DNA of 64,000 nucleotides, taken from the NCBI GenBank assembly GCA_003222675.1, contig QHWT01000060.1, positions 1-64,000 of the forward strand, in the 5' to 3' direction. Under the pieces are notes generated by a model that was not told the DNA's origin, did no database searches, and saw only the letters and a program-made list of their open reading frames with translations. The position numbers and the translations under genes are program-made. Below, one piece after another: positions 14,749-63,325 of this stretch. The DNA comes from Acidobacteriota bacterium. Its GTDB lineage: Bacteria; Acidobacteriota; Vicinamibacteria; Vicinamibacterales; 2-12-FULL-66-21. Position 1 is the stretch's first letter, and every line of letters begins with the position of its first letter.

Positions 14749-15801
14749 ATGAAGCTCGCGATCATCCCCGGTGACGGGATAGGCAAAGAGGTCACAGCCG
14801 AAGCCTTGAAAGTGCTCACGCGCGTCGGCGAGGTGTTCGGCCGCACGTTCGAGTTCGAGCACCTGCCCTGGGGAGCGGACTATTTTCTCGAGACCGGCGT
14901 CACGATGCCGCCAAGCGGCTACGCGATGCTGCGCGACGACTTCGATGCGATCTTCATCGGCGCGCTCGGCGATCCCCGCGTCCCCGACAATCGGCACGCG
15001 CGCGAGATCCTGCTCGGGACGCGGTTCGAGCTCGATCTCTACGTCAACTATCGGCCGGTGAAGCTGCTCGACGAGCGGCTGTGTCCGCTTAAAAATCGCG
15101 CGCCGAAGGACGTGAACTTTGTCGTGTTCCGCGAGAACACCGAGGGCCTTTACGTCAGCGTCGGCGGGCGCTTCAAGGCTGGAACAGAAGACGAAGTCGC
15201 CATCCAGGAGGAGCTGAATACATGGAAAGGCGTGAACCGGATCGTCCGCTACGCCTTCGACTTCGCGGCATGCCGGGGCCTCACGAAGGTGTGCATGGCA
15301 GACAAGAGCAACGCGATGCAGCAGGGTCACGCGCTGTGGCAGCGCGTGTTCAAGGACGTCGCGGCGCAATATCCAACCATCCAACCGACGCACTACTACA
15401 TCGACGCGCTCGCGATGTACATGGTGCTCGACCCCGCGCAGTTCGAGGTCATCGTCACGAACAATCTGTTCGGCGACATCGTCACGGATCTGGGCGCCAC
15501 GTTCCAGGGTGGCCTCGGGATGGCGGCCTCGGGCAACATCCATCCCGGGAAGACATCGATGTTCGAGCCCGTGCATGGCTCGGCGCCGAAGTTCGCAGGG
15601 AAGAACATCGCGAACCCGATCGGCGCGATTTCGTCAGCCGCGCTGATGCTGGAGACGATTGGATTGACGCGGGAAGCCGCGGCCATTGACGCCGCGGTCC
15701 TGAAGGCCGTGCGCGACAATCAGGTCACCAGTGATATTGGTGGAAAGCTGGGCACCCGCGAAGCGGGCGATTCCATCGCGAACAGCATTCGCGAACCTTG
15801 A
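14749..15801 (+). CDS. Isocitrate/isopropylmalate-type decarboxylating dehydrogenase
   Basis: 350 residues from ATG 14749 (MKLAIIPGDGIG); a TTG five codons upstream is less likely. It belongs to the metal-dependent beta-decarboxylating dehydrogenases: nucleotide-binding start IIPGDGIGKEV, substrate loop VVFRENTEGLY, the aspartate-bearing motifs ALAMYMVLDP and NLFGDIVTDLGA, and the cofactor loop EPVHGSAPKFAGKNIANPIG. The RENTEGLY loop is closer to isocitrate, homoisocitrate or tartrate dehydrogenases than to LeuB, so the substrate is left open. The VHGSAPK loop suggests NAD+. Its stop codon lies inside the heptamer repeat that separates it from the next thiolase, which suggests co-transcription with that gene. 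Confidence 0.88.
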   Translation: MKLAIIPGDGIGKEVTAEALKVLTRVGEVFGRTFEFEHLPWGADYFLETGVTMPPSGYAMLRDDFDAIFIGALGDPRVPDNRHAREILLGTRFELDLYVNYRPVKLLDERLCPLKNRAPKDVNFVVFRENTEGLYVSVGGRFKAGTEDEVAIQEELNTWKGVNRIVRYAFDFAACRGLTKVCMADKSNAMQQGHALWQRVFKDVAAQYPTIQPTHYYIDALAMYMVLDPAQFEVIVTNNLFGDIVTDLGATFQGGLGMAASGNIHPGKTSMFEPVHGSAPKFAGKNIANPIGAISSAALMLETIGLTREAAAIDAAVLKAVRDNQVTSDIGGKLGTREAGDSIANSIREP

Positions 15802-15890
15802 ACCGTGAACCGTGAACCCTGAACCGTGAACCCTGAACCGTGAACCCTGAACCGTGAACCCTGAACCGTGAACCGTGAACCGTGAACCGA
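15793..15890 (+). repeat. Heptanucleotide tandem array, 14 units of GAACCNT type
   Basis: Fourteen consecutive 7-nt units: eight GAACCGT, four GAACCCT and one variant at each end (GAACCTT, GAACCGA). The array includes the stop codon of the upstream dehydrogenase (15799-15801), and its last base is the A of the next gene's ATG. It thus fills the whole gap between the two genes. Confidence 0.95.
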
Positions 15891-18528: not shown

Positions 18529-18552
18529 CCGGCAACAGCGGCGCCCTGAAAG

Positions 18553-18664
18553 GGGGACACTCACACTTATTCGCGAAAATGGGAATAAGTGTGAGTGTCC
18601 CCGTTTTCGGAAAGCGGGACACTCACCGTTAATCGCGAAAGTGGGAATAAGTGTGAGTGTCCCC
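18553..18664. repeat. Tandem pair of long palindromes, GTGAGTGTCCC family
   Basis: The first element has two perfect 20-nt arms (18553-18572 and 18583-18602, loop of 10 nt). The second (about 18614-18664) repeats the design with mismatches. The core GTGAGTGTCCC recurs at 55889-55899. The size and pairing recall BIME/REP elements mobilised by REP-associated tyrosine transposases; no such transposase lies in this window. Confidence 0.8.
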
Positions 18665-18674
18665 GTTCGGCCGG

Positions 18675-25217: not shown

Positions 25218-25340
25218 GGGTTCACGGTTCACGGTTCACGGTTCACGGTTCACGGTTCACGGGTTCACGGGTTCACGGGTTCAGTTCAGCGTTCAGGGTT
25301 CGGGGTTCGAGGTTCGGGGTTCGGCTTCAGGGTTCGCTGA
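25218..25340 (-). repeat. Heptanucleotide array, GTGAACC type, minus orientation
   Basis: On the plus strand GGTTCAC units repeat every 7 nt from 25218 and then degrade to 8-nt and GTTCGGG variants after 25258. It lies between the AAA gene start and the 3' end of the phosphodiesterase gene, whose last ~19 codons are read from the degenerate part. It is the same heptamer as at 15793-15890 and 26184-26274. Confidence 0.85.
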
Positions 25341-26146
25341 TTCACGGTTCGGGCCCGGATGACCTCGACTGCGATGTCGGGTCGATCGCTGATGATCCCG
25401 TCGACGCCCCAGTCGATCAGCCTGTTGACGTCCGACTCGGTATCAACGGTCCAGACCTGCACGGCGATGCCGCAACGGTGCGCATGCTCGACGAAGCGTC
25501 GCGAGACGACGCGCGTGGCGCCGGCGAATTCAGGGACTTGGTACGCATCAAACGGTGGACTCGAGACGGGCCACCGGCACCACGATCGATAGAGCGCGAG
25601 CCGGGTTTCGTCCCTGGATGAGCCCGTGTGAATGCGTGGCTCGTAGATGCGTGCCGCTCGGAGCACGCGCGTGCCGAAGGAGCCGAGCGAGACGCGATCG
25701 ATCGTGTCGGCGGCGCGCACTTCGTCGATGGTGCGGTGAGCGAGCGTGGGCTCATTCAGTTTGAGTTCGATGATCATCCAGATATCCCGGTAACGCTGGA
25801 GCACTTCTCGAAGCGTGGGAATGCCGAAGCCGGCGCCACGGAACGGCGGCTGGCCCGACCGACCGCGCGGTACAAAGTTGTGCCCCGCGTCCACGCGTGC
25901 GAGCTCGGCGGCCGTCAGCGCCGCCACCGGACCGCGATGGTCCGTGGTCCGGTCGAGCGTTGCGTCGTGATGGATGACCACAACGCCGTCGCGCGAGAGG
26001 TGCACGTCGAACTCGAGCCCATCCGCGCCGAGGGACAGTCCGTGATCGAATGCCGCGATCGTATTCTCCGGCCGAAGCGCTGCGCCTCCACGGTGCGCGA
26101 AGACCTGGGCACGGCCAACGCCGAGCGCCCGATGTGGTCGTGGCAT
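25286..26146 (-). CDS. Glycerophosphodiester phosphodiesterase
   Basis: 286 residues from ATG 26146; the longer open frame upstream is pure repeat DNA. The GDPD TIM-barrel hallmarks are clear: VFAHRGGAALRPENTIAAF (catalytic His and Glu), EFDVHLSRDGVVVIHHDATL (second His, metal ligands), WMIIELKLNEP and VQVWTVDTESDVNRLIDWGV, then GIISDRPDIAVEV. It hydrolyses glycerophosphodiesters to glycerol-3-phosphate and an alcohol. No signal peptide, so probably cytosolic (UgpQ-like). The final residues (VNQRTLKPNPEPRTPNPER) come from the degenerate heptamer array, so the original stop was probably lost. Heptamer arrays of opposite orientation flank the gene. Confidence 0.9.
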   Translation of the reverse strand: MPRPHRALGVGRAQVFAHRGGAALRPENTIAAFDHGLSLGADGLEFDVHLSRDGVVVIHHDATLDRTTDHRGPVAALTAAELARVDAGHNFVPRGRSGQPPFRGAGFGIPTLREVLQRYRDIWMIIELKLNEPTLAHRTIDEVRAADTIDRVSLGSFGTRVLRAARIYEPRIHTGSSRDETRLALYRSWCRWPVSSPPFDAYQVPEFAGATRVVSRRFVEHAHRCGIAVQVWTVDTESDVNRLIDWGVDGIISDRPDIAVEVIRARTVNQRTLKPNPEPRTPNPER

Positions 26147-26183
26147 GCATCGAATCTTATCTGCAACGCGAATCGCGGCCTGG

Positions 26184-26274
26184 TGAACCCTGAACCCTGA
26201 ACCGTGAACCGTGAACCGTGAACCGTGAACCGTGAACCGTGAACCGTGAACCGTGAACCGTGAACCGTGAACCG
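26184..26274 (+). repeat. Heptanucleotide array, 13 units of GAACCGT type
   Basis: Two GAACCCT, ten GAACCGT and one GAACCGG unit in unbroken 7-nt register. It lies between the divergent phosphodiesterase and BON-LysM genes and runs in the opposite sense to the array at 25218-25340. Confidence 0.95.
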
Positions 26275-34297: not shown

Positions 34298-34441
34298 TGA
34301 CCAGTTGCCAGTTGCCGGTCTCCAGTCTCAGTTCCCAGTTTCCCGTTTCCAGTTTCCAGTTTCCAGTTTCTTGAACTGCCTACTGGTAACTGGTAACTGG
34401 TAACTGGTAACTGGCAACTGGTAACTGGCTACTGGCAACTG
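34298..34441. repeat. Inverted CCAGTTN / AACTGGT heptamer block between convergent genes
   Basis: The left arm (to about 34370) repeats CAGTTTC/CAGTTGC, and the right arm (from about 34382) repeats AACTGGT in 7-nt steps. The two arms are complementary in type, centred near 34376. It fills the gap between lpd and the convergent lipoprotein gene. Related heptamers recur at 43624-43780. Confidence 0.9.
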
Positions 34442-34442
34442 C

Positions 34443-35051
34443 CTACTTTCTCTCTTCACACGACTCCGCCAGCTTCGAGATTTTCTCCACCGCGATTTTC
34501 GGCGCGTTGCCGTTGGCATTGGCCCCCAGCGGCGCGGCCGTCGTCGGCGGCATGGCGCGATCCGGGTTCGCCGACGCGTCGCGCGAGGACTGCTTGACCT
34601 TGTCGTGGTCGCTCGTGGCTTCCTTGTTCGGCAGGTTCGGCAGCACCCGGCCCGAGGTGCCGAGCGTGTTCTCCCCGCGGTCGATCACCTCGCCTGTGAT
34701 CGATACGCGTTGTCCGACGTAGTTCTTCAGGTCTTCTCCGCCTGGCGAGATCCGCACCCAGGATCCCGCTGCGACCAGAGGTCCGTGCGCCATTGTTTCC
34801 TGTCCCTGCGGCTGCGTTTCCGGCTCAGGCATGGTCACGCGCGCGAGGACGTATTCCCGGCCCGGCGTCCCCGGTGCGCCCTGGAGGCACCCTTCCACTC
34901 TGACCATTTCGTTCTTTCCACGTTCGCCTCCGCCCTGGACCTTTCGTTCGTTGTCGACCGGATTGTTGCGGCCTGAACATGCGACGGCCAGCGCCGCGAT
35001 GAGTATCGCGATGCACGCGTGAGCGGCTCGGTGTGACCTTCGATGCGTCAT
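34443..35051 (-). CDS. Putative lipoprotein of unknown function
   Basis: 202 residues from ATG 35051 with GGGGGAA upstream. It has a lipoprotein leader (CIAILIAALAVAC, lipidated Cys at residue 25). The mature part has one beta-rich domain (MVRVEGCLQGAPGTPGREYV, WVRISPGGEDLKNYVGQRVS, ITGEVIDRGENTLGTSGRV), which reads like an OB-fold or SH3-like small barrel. The C-terminal tail is low-complexity. No family was recognised. It converges on lpd and is not obviously linked to PDH. Confidence 0.75.
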   Translation of the reverse strand: MTHRRSHRAAHACIAILIAALAVACSGRNNPVDNERKVQGGGERGKNEMVRVEGCLQGAPGTPGREYVLARVTMPEPETQPQGQETMAHGPLVAAGSWVRISPGGEDLKNYVGQRVSITGEVIDRGENTLGTSGRVLPNLPNKEATSDHDKVKQSSRDASANPDRAMPPTTAAPLGANANGNAPKIAVEKISKLAESCEERK

Positions 35052-41961: not shown

Positions 41962-43623
41962 ATGGAAGCCGCGACCGGGACTGCAAAGCCCAACGTGTCC
42001 TTCGAGACCTCTCCCGAAAAGTACAGGCATTGGAAGCTGGCGTTCGATGGTCCCGTTGCCACCGTGTCGATGGACGTGCAGGAAGACGCGGGCCTCTCGC
42101 CGGACTACCGCCTCAAGCTGAACTCCTACGATCTCGGCGTCGACATCGAGCTGGCGGATGCGATTCAGCGAATCCGCTTCGAGCATCCGGAAGTCCGCAC
42201 CGTCGTCATCACCAGTCTCAAGGAGCGGATTTTCTGCGCCGGGGCGAACATTTTCATGCTGCGCGGATCGACACACGCGTGGAAGGTGAACTTCTGCAAG
42301 TACACCAACGAGACGCGGCTGGCGATCGAGGATGCGAGCGAGCACTCGGGCATCAAGTTTCTCGCGGCGCTGAATGGCATCTGTGCGGGAGGAGGTTACG
42401 AGCTCGCGCTCGCATGCGACGAGCTTATCCTCGTCGACGACGGCAATTCGGCGGTCAGCCTGCCGGAGACACCGCTGCTCGGGGTCCTGCCCGGGACAGG
42501 CGGTCTCACGCGCGTCGTGGACAAGCGCAAGGTCCGTCGCGATCTCGCGGACTTCTTCGGCACGATCGCCGAAGGGATCAAGGGCAAGCGCGCGGTCGAG
42601 TGGCGGCTCGTCGACGCCGTCTATCCAACGAGCCAGTTCAGGCAGCGTGTCGCCGATCGCGCAAAGGCCCTGGCGGACCGATCGGATCGACCTTCCGACG
42701 CGGCAGGCATCCGATTGAACCCGCTCAACCCGTCAATCGACGAGAACCGCTACAAGTACTCGTTGGTGGATATCGAGATCGATCGCGACAAACGGGTCGC
42801 GACACTCACGGTGAGCGGTCCCATAGGGGACGCCCCGGTGTCAGTCGATCAGATCATCGCCGCCGGCGATCAGTTCTGGGCGCTGCGCGCGTTCCGCGAA
42901 CTGGATGATGCGCTGTTGCGACTGCGGATCAACGAACCGCTGATCGGCACCGTCGTCATCAAGACACGCGGCGACCAGCGAGCGATGCTCGCGATGGACG
43001 CGTTCCTGATCGCGCACGCGCAGCACTGGCTGTTGCGCGAGATTATCAACTTCATGAAGCGCACGTTGAAGCGGCTCGATCTCACGTCGCGCAGCTTCTT
43101 CGCGCTCATCGAGCCCGGAAGCTGTTTCGCGGGCTCGCTGTTCGAGCTCGCCATTGCCGCGGACCGTTCGTACATGCTCGACGATCCCGAGCAGGAGAAC
43201 ACGATTGCGCTCTCCGGCATGAACGGCGGTCCGCTGAAAATGAGCAACGGCCTGACGCGGCTGGAAACGCGGTTTCTCGCGGACCCGCAAAAGGTGAAGG
43301 CCGCGCTGGCCGACGACGGTCCGTTTGATCCGCAGGAAGCGATGGCCGCGGAACTGATCTCGTTCGCTCCCGACGAGCTCGATTGGGACGACGAGGTCCG
43401 TCTCGCGATCGAAGGGCGCGCGGCGCTTTCGCCGGATGCCCTTACCGCCATGGAGGCAAACCTCCGCTTCGCAGGGCCGGAGACGATGGAGACGAAGATT
43501 TTTGGCCGGCTGACTGCCTGGCAGAACTGGATCTTCATCCGTCCCAACGCGGTGGGTGAGAAGGGGGCGCTGACCGCGTACGGATCGCAGTCGCGGCCTG
43601 AGTTTGATTACAACAGAACGTAG
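41962..43623 (+). CDS. boxC: Benzoyl-CoA dihydrodiol lyase
   Basis: 553 residues, the size of characterised BoxC (~555). It hydrolytically opens the ring of 2,3-epoxybenzoyl-CoA to 3,4-didehydroadipyl-CoA semialdehyde and formate. The N-terminal crotonase-like domain has TVVITSLKERIFCAGANIFM and NGICAGGGYELALACDELIL; the C-terminal half is a second, degenerate crotonase-like unit (ALIEPGSCFAGSLFELAIAA; GMNGGPLKMSNGLTRLETRF), as in the family. A promoter with TTGACA and an immediately following start codon lies upstream. boxB follows on the same strand after a heptamer array, and boxR is divergent. Confidence 0.93.
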   Translation: MEAATGTAKPNVSFETSPEKYRHWKLAFDGPVATVSMDVQEDAGLSPDYRLKLNSYDLGVDIELADAIQRIRFEHPEVRTVVITSLKERIFCAGANIFMLRGSTHAWKVNFCKYTNETRLAIEDASEHSGIKFLAALNGICAGGGYELALACDELILVDDGNSAVSLPETPLLGVLPGTGGLTRVVDKRKVRRDLADFFGTIAEGIKGKRAVEWRLVDAVYPTSQFRQRVADRAKALADRSDRPSDAAGIRLNPLNPSIDENRYKYSLVDIEIDRDKRVATLTVSGPIGDAPVSVDQIIAAGDQFWALRAFRELDDALLRLRINEPLIGTVVIKTRGDQRAMLAMDAFLIAHAQHWLLREIINFMKRTLKRLDLTSRSFFALIEPGSCFAGSLFELAIAADRSYMLDDPEQENTIALSGMNGGPLKMSNGLTRLETRFLADPQKVKAALADDGPFDPQEAMAAELISFAPDELDWDDEVRLAIEGRAALSPDALTAMEANLRFAGPETMETKIFGRLTAWQNWIFIRPNAVGEKGALTAYGSQSRPEFDYNRT

Positions 43624-43780
43624 TAACCAGTAGCCAGTAACCAGTAGCCAGTAACCAGTAGCCAGTAACCAGTAGCCAGTAACCAGTAACCAGTAACCAG
43701 TAACCAGTAGCCAGTTTCCCGTAGCCAGTTGTCAGTGAATAGTAACCGGAAACCGGAAACCGGAAATCGAGACTGGAGAC
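43624..43780 (+). repeat. Heptanucleotide array, CAGTAAC/CAGTAGC type
   Basis: Alternating CAGTAAC and CAGTAGC units in 7-nt register from 43627 to about 43707, then degenerate forms and (GGAAACC) units to about 43765. It lies between boxC and boxB on the same strand. Confidence 0.9.
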
Positions 43781-46913: not shown

Positions 46914-47059
46914 CGGGATGCGGGGTGCGGGACGCGGGGTACGGGGTGCGGGGCGCGGGATGCGGCACGCGAAATCGCGGGCGATTTGGGCAGCGATCTT
47001 GGCACCCTGGATTCCGCACCCCGCACCCCGCACCCCCGCACCCCGCACCCCGCACCCCG
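46914..47059. repeat. Inverted GGGTGCG / GCACCCC heptamer block
   Basis: The left arm (46914-46967) repeats GCGGGGT/GCGGGAC-type units. The right arm (47013-47059) repeats GCACCCC in near-perfect 7-nt steps. The arms are complementary around a unique centre of about 45 nt. It fills the space between the aldehyde dehydrogenase and the kynureninase-like gene; the same heptamer recurs at 63213-63325. Confidence 0.9.
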
Positions 47060-50546: not shown

Positions 50547-51434
50547 ATGCTGCGCGTCCTTGTGCTGTCCCTCGCGTTCACGGCATTCACTGTCCAGGAG
50601 CGACTTCACGGCTCCGGCCCGTTGCGCCTGCGTTATGGCGTGGCCGCGTTCGGCGCGGTAAATCCGCTGCAGTCGATCGAGACGCTGCGCTCGCTCGGCT
50701 TCGACTACGCCGAGCCGGCGCTTTCACAGACGCTCGCGCTCGATCCTCAGGCGCTCGCGTCAGCCCGCGCAAAGACAGCGGAGACCGGCGTTCACGTCGA
50801 GACGATGAACTGGTTCCTGCCGGGGACCGACATCAAGCTGACAGGGCCCGACACCGACCCGGCGAAAATCCGCGCGTACGTCGAAAAGGCTCTCGCCCTC
50901 GCGGAAAGCTTCGGCGCAAAGGTCATCGTATTCGGCAGCCCCGGCGCTCGCACCGTCCCCGATGGCTTTCCGCGAGAGAAGGCCTGGGCGCAGCTGAAGG
51001 ATTTCCTGCAGACGTGCGGCGACGTGATCCAGTCGCGCGGCTACGGCATGGTGATCGGCATCGAGGCGTTGCGCAAGCCGGAGACGAACATCGTCAATTC
51101 CGTCGCGGAGGCGCTGAAGCTCGCAAGAGAGGTAAACCATCCGAAGATCCGCATCATCGTCGACTTCTATCACCTGACGTTCGAACATGAGGACCCAGCC
51201 GTGATCCTCGACGCGGGTGACATGATCGTTCACCTCCAGATCGCCGATCCCCGTGAGCGGAGGTTCCCAACGAGCGACGCGGGCGAGCCGCGCTATGCCG
51301 CGTTCTTCAAGAACCTGCGCGCGATCGGGTATCGCGGACGAATCAGCATCGAGGCGAATTCCAGCGACGTCGAGACGGACGCCCGCGCGTCGCTGGCTTT
51401 TCTCAAAGAGATGGCCGACAAGTACGGCCGTTAA
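50547..51434 (+). CDS. Xylose-isomerase-like TIM-barrel protein (sugar phosphate isomerase/epimerase family), exported
   Basis: 295 residues. The short hydrophobic leader MLRVLVLSLAFTAFTVQE suggests export. The rest is an AP-endonuclease-2/xylose-isomerase-type barrel: LRYGVAAFGAVNPLQSIETL, VHVETMNWFLPGTDI, AKVIVFGSPGARTVPDGFPR, MVIGIEALRKPETNIVNSVA, IRIIVDFYHLTFEHEDPAVI, VHLQIADPRERRFPTSDAG and RGRISIEANSSDVETDARAS. The Glu, Asp and His at strand ends would bind a divalent metal. It is divergent from the DUF1080 gene, so both probably act on the same keto- or aldo-sugar. Exact reaction unknown. Confidence 0.88.
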   Translation: MLRVLVLSLAFTAFTVQERLHGSGPLRLRYGVAAFGAVNPLQSIETLRSLGFDYAEPALSQTLALDPQALASARAKTAETGVHVETMNWFLPGTDIKLTGPDTDPAKIRAYVEKALALAESFGAKVIVFGSPGARTVPDGFPREKAWAQLKDFLQTCGDVIQSRGYGMVIGIEALRKPETNIVNSVAEALKLAREVNHPKIRIIVDFYHLTFEHEDPAVILDAGDMIVHLQIADPRERRFPTSDAGEPRYAAFFKNLRAIGYRGRISIEANSSDVETDARASLAFLKEMADKYGR

Positions 51435-51519
51435 TGACTTCTGCCTGATTCCACCCGAGGCCGCAGAGCTCATCGCAACCTCGCTCAGCCAGCCCGACCC
51501 GATAGTACGATCATCGTCG

Positions 51520-51548
51520 TTGACATACGACAGATGTCGTAGTAATAC
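51520..51548 (+). promoter_or_regulatory. blaI promoter with BlaI/MecI-type operator in the spacer
   Basis: TTGACA (51520-51525), a 17-nt spacer and TAATAC (51543-51548) form a near-consensus promoter. The perfect palindrome TACGACA-GA-TGTCGTA (51526-51541) fills the spacer and contains the ACA-N2-TGT core of BlaI/MecI operators. ATG 51556 is 7 nt after the -10, so the mRNA should be leaderless. The layout predicts tight autorepression. Confidence 0.8.
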
Positions 51549-51555
51549 CTGAGAG

Positions 51556-51936
51556 ATGACTTCGCCGCCCCCCACCGACGCCGAACTGGAAATCCTCCGC
51601 ATCATCTGGACACGCGGTCCCTCGACGGTGCGAGAAGTACACGAACGCATCAGCGACATGAAAACCGTCGGCTACACCACGGTCCTCAAGCAGATGCAGG
51701 TGATGCACGGCAAAGGCCTGCTTGCGCGTTCCGATCGCTTTCGATCGCACGTCTATGAGCCGGTTCAGAGCAGGACACAGACTCAGCGGCAGCTGGCCGC
51801 CTCAATGCTTCGGCAGGTCTTCGACGGATCGGCGAGGCAGCTTCTTCAGAGCGCGCTTGCGGGGCGCAAGGTGGACCCGCGAGAGCTGAAGCAGATTCGT
51901 GAGTTGCTGGACAACTACGAGAGGAAATCGAAATGA
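51556..51936 (+). CDS. BlaI/MecI-family transcriptional repressor
   Basis: 126 residues. The winged helix domain (1-~75) shows LTDAELEILRIIW-like spacing (PTDAELEILRIIWTRGPSTV), the recognition helix region VGYTTVLKQMQVMHGKGLLA and the wing SDRFRSHVYEPVQSR. The C-terminal part (SMLRQVFDGSARQLLQSALA) is the dimerisation helix pair. The repressor would bind the palindrome at 51526-51541 in its own promoter and be inactivated by proteolysis triggered by the BlaR1-like membrane protein. The stop overlaps the next start (ATGA), the usual blaI-blaR1 coupling. No beta-lactamase gene is adjacent, so the inducing signal may not be an antibiotic. Confidence 0.93.
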   Translation: MTSPPPTDAELEILRIIWTRGPSTVREVHERISDMKTVGYTTVLKQMQVMHGKGLLARSDRFRSHVYEPVQSRTQTQRQLAASMLRQVFDGSARQLLQSALAGRKVDPRELKQIRELLDNYERKSK

Positions 51937-53621
51937 CGCCGGGACTCGCGTCGCTGGACAACCGCTACCTCGTCCTCGTCGGCTGGACGCTCTTCATGAT
52001 TCTCTGGGAGACGACCGTTGTAGGCGTGCTGTTCGTGGGCTGGCGGGTGTGGCGCTCTCGCGCATCGGCCGAGCGCCAGCACGACGCCGCCGTCGTGGCG
52101 ATGATTGCGGCGGTGGTTATCGCGGCGGCAACGCCGGGCATCCTCGCGGCGCTGCCCGTATCGGCATCGCCCTCTGCTACGTCGATGGCCGTGGCTCGCC
52201 ATATTTCGCCGGAGCCGCCGCGCGCCGACGAGCCTCGCGCCTTTATGGTGGGCGGCGAATCGACGAGCCGCGGGACGAGTGCAGTGCTCGATCACGTCGC
52301 CGCCGCTGCGGCGGTCGCCTGGGCGCTTGGCGTGCTGATTTTTGGGGGTCGACTCTTGGGCGGGTGGGTCCTCGCCCGCGCGATTGCCAGACGCGCGGAG
52401 CATCTCGCCAATGATTCCGTCAACACAACGGCTTTGCGGCTCATCGAGGAGCTGCGCCTCGGCCTCGATATCAGAGTGGTTCAGTCGCCTGAGGTCGACG
52501 CGCCGGCCGTCATTGGCTGGCGCCGTCCCACGCTGATTCTGCCGCCAGAGGCCGGCAGTCTGTCGCCGGACATGATTGCCGCGCTGCTCGCTCACGAGTT
52601 CGCTCACATCCGGCGCCGCGACTATGTCGCAAACCTCGTCCAGTCATCGATCGAAGTGTTTCTCTTCTTCAGCCCGGCCGTCGTGTGGATATCGCGGCGT
52701 ATTCGCGAAGCGCGCGAATTCTGCTGCGACGACATCGCCGTCGCGCGATGCAAAGACGCCAGGCACTACGTTCATGCCCTCACCACGCTTGCGGCGCTGG
52801 GGACGATGAACACCGCGCGGCCGGCGCTGGGCGCCGCGGGCCCGCGTCTCATCACTCGCGTCCGCCGCCTGCTTCAGGGGGAAGCCATGCCGACATTCAG
52901 CTCCGTGCGCCTGGTCGCGCTCGCGGCCGCGTTGATCGTGTTAGTTGCCGCTGGCTCGCGTGTATCGCTCGCGTCAGCGGCCCGCGTTCCGCGCGCAGCA
53001 CCTGCTGCCGGTGCTCCGCGTCAGGACAAGATCCCATTCGGCTATGCCACCGAGCAGCACGGATCGGGTGTGGTGCTTGAAAAGGTCATCTCGTCAGCGG
53101 AAGCACCTGCGCAAAGAGCTACCGTCCGTAATATCAGCTCTGAGCGGATCATCGGATTACGGTTCGTGGCCGCTGTCGAACGCTTCGGCGCCACGCCGCG
53201 TTCCGTACGGCTTTTCACTTCCGACGTCATTCCCGCATCGATTGCTTCAGGTCAGTCGCTGGACGTGTCTCCAAACGTCCTGAGTGCTGCCCAGGTGCAA
53301 GACGTCGCCGCCGAAACACCGGAGGGCCACCTACAGTTCTTCATTGGATTGCAGTCTGTCCAGTTTGCCAACGGATACCTGTGGAGCATGACTCCAAACC
53401 CGGCGGCGCTGACCGGCGAAGACGCACTGAATCTTCAGCACCCCATTTACTCGCGCGATCTGATCACGCGCGACGCCCGTCGGCCGCAAGTGCCCGATGC
53501 GGCGTGCCGCGACGAGCAGAACGCCGCGACCTCGCACGGCGGGGTCGTCTCGATCCTGAACGAGCCGGGACGCTTCATGCGGTGCGACAACGGCCGATGG
53601 ATTGAAACGGCCCTCAAGTAG
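51933..53621 (+). CDS. BlaR1-like M56 membrane metallopeptidase
   Basis: 562 residues. N-terminal membrane helices at about 10-35, 50-75 and 110-140 are followed by the M56 zinc protease domain: RVVQSPEVDAPAVIGWRRPT, LLAHEFAHIRRRDYVANLVQ (HExxH with H221, E222, H225) and a further Glu in REAREFCCDDIAVARC. A last helix (about 325-345; LVALAAALIVLVAAGSRVSL) leads to an exported C-terminal domain of ~210 residues. That domain is not a penicillin-binding-type sensor as in classical BlaR1; it has no SxxK motif that I can see. It presumably senses another signal and triggers cleavage of the BlaI-type repressor. Confidence 0.9.
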   Translation: MTPGLASLDNRYLVLVGWTLFMILWETTVVGVLFVGWRVWRSRASAERQHDAAVVAMIAAVVIAAATPGILAALPVSASPSATSMAVARHISPEPPRADEPRAFMVGGESTSRGTSAVLDHVAAAAAVAWALGVLIFGGRLLGGWVLARAIARRAEHLANDSVNTTALRLIEELRLGLDIRVVQSPEVDAPAVIGWRRPTLILPPEAGSLSPDMIAALLAHEFAHIRRRDYVANLVQSSIEVFLFFSPAVVWISRRIREAREFCCDDIAVARCKDARHYVHALTTLAALGTMNTARPALGAAGPRLITRVRRLLQGEAMPTFSSVRLVALAAALIVLVAAGSRVSLASAARVPRAAPAAGAPRQDKIPFGYATEQHGSGVVLEKVISSAEAPAQRATVRNISSERIIGLRFVAAVERFGATPRSVRLFTSDVIPASIASGQSLDVSPNVLSAAQVQDVAAETPEGHLQFFIGLQSVQFANGYLWSMTPNPAALTGEDALNLQHPIYSRDLITRDARRPQVPDAACRDEQNAATSHGGVVSILNEPGRFMRCDNGRWIETALK

Positions 53622-53650
53622 CAGCATCGACCGCCGATTCCCGCGAGCAG

Positions 53651-54079
53651 CTAGCGCTTCTTGCGGGATCCCTGGCCGGCGCCCGAGCGCGAGCCCGACC
53701 GGCGACGCCCGGAACTGCCGCTGGTCCCCTTCTTCGACCCGGTGCCCGATGCGCCGGCTCGATTCGCGCTCTTCCGGGCGCCGGTGGAACCGCGCCCGGA
53801 GGTTTGCCGCTTTCGGCCGCGTGGGGCAGCGGATTTCGATCCTCTGCCTTTCGGCGAGGCCTGTGAACCGCGGGCGCCGCCTGCGGTTCCTTCGACTTCA
53901 CCGCGGCTCTCCGATGTGGTGCGCGCCTTTTTGGGTGACGCCGTGCCTCGCGCGCGGCCGCCGCGCCCTCCTCCGCCACCACCGGCTGTCTCGTCGCCCG
54001 CCTCGCGCTCGGTTCCGGCGTCGCGCTCCGCGTCAGTTTGCGCGTCTCCCGTGTATTCCCTCTGGTCGTTATCTGCCAT
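53651..54079 (-). CDS. Low-complexity protein with acidic N-terminus and very basic Gly/Ser/Arg/Lys C-terminus
   Basis: 142 residues from ATG 54079 with GGAGG 9 nt upstream, a good ribosome site that supports a real gene. The first ~30 residues are acidic (MADNDQREYTGDAQTDAERD). The rest is almost only G, S, R, K, A and T (RGSKSAAPRGRKRQTSGRGS, KKGTSGSSGRRRSGSRSG). It resembles histone-H1-like or stress-related disordered nucleic-acid-binding proteins, but no family can be named. An overlapping longer frame exists on the same strand; the ribosome site and the plausible acidic start favour this one. Confidence 0.6.
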   Translation of the reverse strand: MADNDQREYTGDAQTDAERDAGTEREAGDETAGGGGGGRGGRARGTASPKKARTTSESRGEVEGTAGGARGSQASPKGRGSKSAAPRGRKRQTSGRGSTGARKSANRAGASGTGSKKGTSGSSGRRRSGSRSGAGQGSRKKR

Positions 54080-54402: not shown

Positions 54403-54840
54403 TTACTGGATATTGATCGAGCCATGCAGGCTGCGATTCGAGTCGTCCAGATGGTCGTGGTATCCGCACGTCCCAGCGTTCGCGAATGCGTGCGTCGACC
54501 TGCTCTGCCCTGGAGAGAGCGTGGCGAGTCCCGCCTCGATAGACGGGCACGACCCGTGTTGCGGGTGCGGATCCGATGCGATCTCGTGCGAGCGCGAATC
54601 GTTGTTGATAAACGTGACGCTCTGGCCGACCGCGACAGTCACGGCCGACGGGTTGACGCCGGCTGACGTGATGGTTACCGTCGCGCCGGTTTGACTGCCG
54701 GTGCCGCCGTCACGCGAGATGACCGTGACTCCGCTTCCGGATGGAGCCGAAGGAGAACTGCCGCACGCGAATGAAGAGGCGAGTACGCCGAGTGCAAGGC
54801 CGCCGACGATGAAGGCGTGACATGAAGGCTGTTGAAGCAT
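54403..54840 (-). CDS. Cupredoxin-domain lipoprotein (plastocyanin-like)
   Basis: 145 residues. A lipoprotein leader ends LASSFAC (Cys26). After a Ser/Pro/Gly linker, residues ~50-145 form a cupredoxin: VTITSAGVNPSAVTVAVGQS, VTFINNDSRSHEIASDPHP and FANAGTCGYHDHLDDSNRS. Likely type-1 copper ligands are H85, C125 and H128 or H130; a Met is absent in the last loop, where His could take its place. It would carry electrons or bind copper at the outer face of a membrane. It starts 3 nt after the DUF5777 gene on the same strand, so the two form an operon. Confidence 0.88.
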   Translation of the reverse strand: MLQQPSCHAFIVGGLALGVLASSFACGSSPSAPSGSGVTVISRDGGTGSQTGATVTITSAGVNPSAVTVAVGQSVTFINNDSRSHEIASDPHPQHGSCPSIEAGLATLSPGQSRSTHAFANAGTCGYHDHLDDSNRSLHGSINIQ

Positions 54841-55819: not shown

Positions 55820-55899
55820 GTGTCCGAAAGCCAGAAACGGTGACAGTCACAGTTTCCGGTCGTCTGTTATCCGCTTTCGAGAAGAACTGTGAGTGTCCC
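55820..55899. repeat. REP-like palindrome, GTGAGTGTCCC family
   Basis: GAAACGGTGAC-A-GTCACAGTTTC at 55834-55856 (11-bp arms, one mismatch), followed by the GTGAGTGTCCC core at 55889-55899. It is related to the tandem pair at 18553-18664. It lies between the regulator gene and the DUF5777 gene, and the tail is close to the regulator's stop codon. Confidence 0.7.
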
Positions 55900-62100: not shown

Positions 62101-62190
62101 CTGCCAGCCACCAGCCGCCAGCTTTCAGCAGCTGGCAGCTAACGGCTGGAAGCTGATGGCTGGAAGCTGATAGCTGGAAGCTGGAAGCTT
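62101..62190. repeat. Inverted block of AGCTGGAAGCTGAT-type repeats
   Basis: The left side has CAGCCAC/CAGCCGC units, and the right side GCTGGAAGCTGATG (two heptamers) repeated with small changes. The sides are complementary in type. It fills the gap between the ferredoxin and nuoB. Confidence 0.7.
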
Positions 62191-63198: not shown

Positions 63199-63212
63199 GA
63201 TTCGGTATTCCG

Positions 63213-63325
63213 CGCCACGTACCCCGCACCCCGCACCCCGCACCCCGCATCGCGCACCCCGCACCCCGCATCCCGCACCCCGCACCCCGCATCCCGCACC
63301 CCGCACCCCGCATCGCGCACCCCGA
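63213..63325 (+). repeat. Heptanucleotide array, GCACCCC/GCATCCC type
   Basis: About 15 units of GCACCCC with GCATCCC and GCATCGC variants in 7-nt register, between nuoI and the TPR gene, ending a few bases before the TPR gene's -10 element. The same heptamer forms the right arm of the block at 46914-47059. Confidence 0.92.

Follow-up and report, generated by a model that had tools for sequence, protein, structure and literature searches.

The DNA analysed here, a 64,000-nucleotide stretch of an acidobacterial genome (the window), carries a palindrome lodged in the promoter of a gene for a BlaI-family repressor, which is followed by a gene for an M56 membrane protease. This raises the question of what the palindrome controls, and whether the gene pair is a classical antibiotic switch or something else. 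From the arrangement of the DNA and the families of the two proteins we consider it likely that an autoregulated BlaI/M56 operon has its control region at 51506-51556 and works by the switch mechanism proposed below (features in Table 1).

Table 1. Features of the BlaI/M56 locus, in positions of the window
Feature	Sequence	Position	Strand	Remarks
Operator 1 (distal)	TACGATCATCGTCGTT	51506..51521	+	last 2 bases are the first 2 of the -35
-35 hexamer	TTGACA	51520..51525	+	6/6
Operator 2 (proximal)	TACGACAGATGTCGTA	51526..51541	+	TACGACA-GA-TGTCGTA; inside the promoter spacer
-10 hexamer	TAATAC	51543..51548	+	17-nt spacing; 3/6 vs TATAAT, weak
blaI		51556..51936	+	repressor, 126 aa, recognition helix GYTTVLKQMQVM, PF03965
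M56 membrane metalloprotease gene		51933..53621	+	562 aa, HEFAH at 221-225, PF05569
Presumed exported sensor tail		52953..53618	+	last 222 codons of the M56 gene; no Pfam family

The sequence-only reading had described one palindrome filling the 17-nt spacer between a consensus -35 and a consensus -10. The palindrome is real, with perfect 7-bp arms around a GA centre, and its placement is exact with one extra base, as operator 2 and a single G at 51542 make up the entire spacer; what was overlooked is the second operator, which starts 20 bp upstream and extends into the -35. The single-operator reading was dropped once homologous promoters were compared, as these show two operators. Operator 1 agrees with TACGAN6TCGTA at 9 of the 10 fixed positions, and the two operators differ at their 3' ends (TCGTT in operator 1, TCGTA in operator 2). 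When the 125 bases preceding operator 2 were shuffled, an equally good operator arose at offsets 18-26 in 37 of 200000 composition shuffles and 12 of 60000 dinucleotide shuffles. The 16-mer of operator 2, with up to 3 mismatches allowed, occurs at a single place in the window, with one match per strand, these 2 matches comparing with a mean of 0.22 in 100 shuffles, two of which gave 2 or more; TACGACNNNNGTCGTA has one place in the whole 7.16-Mb genome. The -35 does equal the consensus, whereas "consensus" is too strong a word for the -10, because only three of its six bases match and a sigma-70 scan across 51000-54000 reported no promoter. The start codon lies 7 nt past the -10, as had been claimed, and from this geometry the blaI transcript probably begins at or beside the ATG, that is, leaderless. 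The distance from -10 to start, with start codons chosen by script, is 6-10 nt in 16 of 22 protein-found promoters; among the closest four orthologues (L019-L022), L020 and L022 have 21 and 18 nt.

We then examined how far this arrangement recurs. Searching 60 related genomes at the protein level turned up blaI homologues in 47 of them, at no fewer than 30 loci. Twenty-five promoters were examined, those of the 24 higher-scoring listed loci (L018-L041, among them the window's own) and of a paralogue in the same genome (L003), leaving out six lower-scoring loci (L042-L047) with another repressor type. Among these listed matches, found by protein and not by DNA, tandem operators with offsets of 20-24 stand upstream of 22 of the 25 blaI genes; L026 and L038 have the proximal operator alone and L039 has none. 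In a sample of 396 genomes of the phylum, the exact tandem pattern TACGAN6TCGTTGAN(2-5)TACGAN6TCGTA occurs at 63 places spread over 46 genomes and is missing from the other 350; the reversed pattern, our control, has none in the same 396. As judged by an HMM built from the BlaI proteins of the window's own genome, a blaI start lies within 250 nt at 58 of the 63 places and is absent at 5; adding nine protein-search places outside the 63, all before blaI, brings the total to 67 of 72. Per-position conservation is partly circular, since most of the promoters concerned were found via the arm pattern, and the protein-found set is to be preferred.

The spacing of exactly 20 bp is a narrower trait, present in 6 of 162 genomes searched in the order. 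It marks the window's clade and also L027 and L149 outside it, while offsets of 21-24 are found in the remaining tandem promoters of the phylum. Unlike the window's promoter, that of L033, with an offset of 24, has a complete TCGTA and then a separate TTGACA; in a paralogue on contig C22 of the own genome, the TACGAA operators of the tandem have an offset of 22. That L027 gained its 20-bp spacing independently was not borne out, as an AU test does not reject one clade (p 0.34). Outside the phylum, two Verrucomicrobiota loci (L015, L017) have two TACGAC palindromes each, 26 and 25 bp apart.

The protein encoded directly downstream scores 92 bits against PF03965, beyond the curated cut-off of 22.6, and also matches BlaI and MecI chains in the PDB (1sd4, E 0.00027; 1okr, E 0.005). 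At the level of sequence, the promoter of the operon that encodes it carries a palindromic operator. The family of this repressor, together with the operator core GACAGATGTC, which fits the CopY core KACANNTGTM given in excerpts of PMC7253601, upholds the earlier description of the operator as BlaI-type. The partner gene, which overlaps blaI by 4 bases, encodes a protein with 89.7 bits against PF05569 and the HExxH-bearing M56 domain of BlaR1 and MecR1; H221, E222, H225, E262, C265, D266 and D267 do not differ between the window and the orthologues of G027 and G028.

We propose that two BlaI dimers would bind the two operators, whose 20-bp distance is about two helical turns, the distal dimer reaching the -35 and the proximal one sitting between -35 and -10. 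So placed, BlaI would block its own promoter. Some signal outside the inner membrane would act on the M56 tail, and the zinc protease domain would then lead to inactivation of BlaI and derepression of the operon, with transcripts probably starting at or next to the ATG. Against this reading stand the weak -10, missed by the promoter scan, the loss of a cleavage site known from BlaI (see below), the 350 genomes that lack the exact pattern, the three of 25 promoters in which the tandem is incomplete or absent, the loose tie between operator spacing and helix residue, and helix-operator correlations that may go back to few events. Self-control is the only demonstrable target, because the own genome has no second 20-bp tandem at up to 3 mismatches and neither a beta-lactamase nor a PBP gene appears among the eight neighbours scanned; further targets may have other forms of operator.

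An alternative is that the pair is a regulator with wider targets, such as export or envelope genes, and that self-control is mere feedback. The evidence for this comes from two other genomes. In G280, offset-20 tandems lie ahead of a duplicated ADOP permease (801.6 bits for TIGR03434, where the cut-off is 622.3), whose ATG lies 14 nt past the operator, and of a 479-aa protein that matches no family; in G316 one precedes a DUF3738/TIGR03435 protein, after a 14-codon open frame (the three loci are L126, L127 and L130). These make the window-type system a candidate for the control of one ADOP permease and one DUF3738 protein. Each target is nevertheless seen in one genome only, G280 and G316 share one other genus, and whole-genome offset-20 scans of eight further genomes gave no places beyond those already known. 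Within the own genome, where the sequence-only reading had proposed a scan for regulated genes, the 20-bp tandem stands alone, and the six single palindromes TACGAN6TCGTA gave no clear target: two are blaI promoters, those on C38 and C77 lie by eye inside open frames, and another is on C151. A wide regulon in the own genome was rejected on these grounds, and we regard the alternative as a whole as possible but doubtful. At G000:C4:127039-127054 (L139), the single palindrome TACGATGCGTTTCGTA stands just before a 483-aa open frame and may mark a further target. Two further places without blaI, L132 and L135, are of the TACGAA type, L135 with an AhpC-TSA match.

A second alternative, which we think improbable, is a classical BlaI/BlaR1 beta-lactam switch whose sensor has diverged past recognition. 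The gene pair and the operator core are as in the bla and mec systems: the BlaI/BlaR1 and MecI/MecR1 pairs of Firmicutes likewise unite a PF03965 repressor and an M56 membrane protease in one operon with palindromic operators, and excerpts of PMC3305447 describe multiple operators per control region, three (OP1-OP3) in B. licheniformis. The window differs in having its tandem 20 bp apart and running into the promoter elements, in its half-site TACGAC, and in its repressor, where the Asn-Phe cleavage site of the B. licheniformis and S. aureus BlaI is not preserved and aligns with Ser-Ala. The Asn-Phe site is not required for PF03965 membership at large. In the BlaI described in PMC3305447, the bond cleaved is Asn101-Phe102.

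Against a beta-lactam switch stands the tail of the protease, which had been said not to be penicillin-binding. As far as sequence families go this is borne out, neither Pfam nor NCBIfam giving a penicillin-binding match there. At E<=1 Pfam finds only M56 and M48 in the whole protein, and at E<=10 nothing in the last 222 residues (HMMER filters discard most weak matches), while NCBIfam blaR1_generic covers residues 118-279 only, with 66.7 bits, short of the cut-off of 400. A single-sequence AlphaFold model of the tail has a mean pLDDT of 34.2 and is unusable, and a viral scan found no relatives of it. Relatives of the M56 protein were found by contig search at 4 loci only. Over the whole protein the orthologues share 34% (L051, whose alignment reaches residue 559) and 29% (L052) identity with the window's; the G028 match stops at residue 489 on its contig, and a piece matching 478-559 lies on another contig, which leaves the end of the G028 protein uncertain. 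Among 10 M56 sequences of related loci none has a transpeptidase or beta-lactamase domain at E<=0.01; TonB_C occurs in three (one also with CarboxypepD_reg) and seven have no known tail domain. The Gln-type M56 of G316 (L125) has two TonB_C copies, and L129 of G280 resembles it by eye. As for the surroundings, the next non-overlapping gene-like open frame downstream is by eye on the opposite strand (53651-54079), and eight neighbouring genes, two of them without any match, include no beta-lactamase, PBP or transpeptidase match.

Less probable still is a CopY-like copper control, in which the two operator repeats would be the known layout of cop operons. CopY and CopR belong to the same repressor superfamily, NCBIfam TIGR02698 (CopY_TcrY) matches our repressor with E 5.7e-12, and passages of PMC7253601 describe CopY promoters with two 21-base repeat operators, the distal suggested to keep sigma off the -35 and the proximal to occlude polymerase; a cupredoxin-like protein lies close by at 54406-54840 (21.3 bits, under the cut-off of 27). 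The TIGR02698 score of 46 bits is nevertheless below the cut-off of 121.95, and the repressor, having no cysteine at all, lacks a Cys-X-Cys motif. The partner is a protease and not a copper exporter, the eight scanned neighbours include no copper ATPase, and the outermost operator bases, T and A, misfit the R and Y of the 16-base consensus in those passages. Finally, that the palindromes are chance, or sites of another regulator, is a reading we give almost no weight, their recurrence before blaI genes and the empty reversed control in 396 genomes having largely refuted chance.

The proposed autoregulated BlaI/M56 operon is not without precedent. Going by the excerpted text of PMC3305447 and PMC7253601, the two-operator principle is already known, because CopY promoters and B. 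licheniformis OP1-OP3 have it, and the CopY paper also refers to two operators for BlaI; the window's control region is a variant of this known BlaI/CopY two-operator design. Among the matches listed, a literature search of titles and beginnings of abstracts gave nothing on BlaI operators of the phylum, and the tight promoter overlap, its recurrence in the phylum and a correlation between helix and operator were not found in the literature searched.

This last correlation concerns the recognition helix. In the protein-found set, TACGA operators accompany the Lys helix YT(T/S)xLK in 27 of 29 repressors (not L016 and L039), and Thr at the Lys position goes with TACTA in six of eight, four as 16-mers and two (L002, L042) only as a 23-base pair by a looser rule, the remaining two (L045, L011) having no TACTA operator; seven repressors with other helices have neither. 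Position 6 of the half-site was tabulated for 64 different tandem promoters with a script-readable helix, leaving out L090, L119 and L123 as identical promoters and L111, L112, L114 and L128, whose helix VYTGVLK(L/M), mostly with TACGAA, the script missed. It is C or T in 30 of 32 half-sites of the eight Gln-type promoters, A in 188 of 220 half-sites of the 55 hydrophobic-type promoters, many of which are near copies from one family, and T or C in all four of the single Thr-type promoter. Position 4 is not free in this table and position 6 alone is, because most of the promoters were found by the TACGA pattern. In the tree, 78 rows that have the Lys-type helix group into one clade (98/97), and the eight Gln-type rows likewise make up a clade (97/96); L010, L012 and L070, with Lys in a different helix, fall outside the Lys-type clade. 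Since the Gln and Lys types are each one clade, the correlations may rest on one or a few events. Over this small number of independent events, operator bases follow the helix: TACGA accompanies Lys, TACTA accompanies Thr, and a pyrimidine at position 6 accompanies Gln.

Other BlaI/M56 pairs of the genome and phylum share the gene order of the window's class, which differs from them in having C or T at base 6 of the half-site where theirs is mostly A, an offset of 20 where theirs is mostly 21-24, Gln in the helix where theirs is hydrophobic, and different M56 tails. Spacing and residue are not strictly tied, because offset 20 also occurs with Thr (L027) and Leu (L149); L149, found later and absent from the table, has by eye mixed half-sites, and shows that Gln, the pyrimidine and the 20-bp spacing do not always go together. 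Outside the phylum the position-6 rule fails, the Verrucomicrobiota loci pairing Leu with TACGAC.

The own genome has 12 BlaI-family (PF03965) matches, one precisely at cut-off, and 11 M56 matches, nine of them above cut-off, which is beyond the needs of one beta-lactam switch. The match at cut-off (L013, G000:C151:57119, 22.6 bits) reads by eye as an ArsR-type domain fused to a methyltransferase, and is therefore probably not a BlaI. Different, partly imperfect palindromes lie near the starts of the paralogues L004, L006, L007, L010 and L012 (GCGAATA-TATTCGC, for example, precedes L010), and as these differ, the channels may be separately addressed. A readable tandem operator offers a direct handle on assigning repressors to genes, and a testable helix-to-operator code. 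Tentatively, and with less conviction than for the operon itself, we posit that several phyla may hold parallel envelope-sensing BlaI/M56 channels, each with its own tandem operator embedded in the promoter. A simple helix code, pairing base 4 with Lys or Thr and base 6 with Gln or a hydrophobic residue, would help to separate them; M56 tails would be exchanged freely, and the window's class would directly control members of the ADOP permease and DUF3738 paralogue families.

Elsewhere in the window there are tandem arrays of differing units with a 7-bp period, at 15793-15889, 25219-25350, 26183-26274, 34301-34447, 43622-43736, 46914-47059, 62145-62189 and 63210-63324; a comparable repeat was seen by eye in translation near G000:C151 68722 (L142). 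At 18548-18667 a 62-nt unit is repeated 1.9 times and contains an inverted repeat with GGGACACTCACACTTA and TAAGTGTGAGTGTCCC, REP-like by eye, and GTGAGTGTCCC is also present near 55890.
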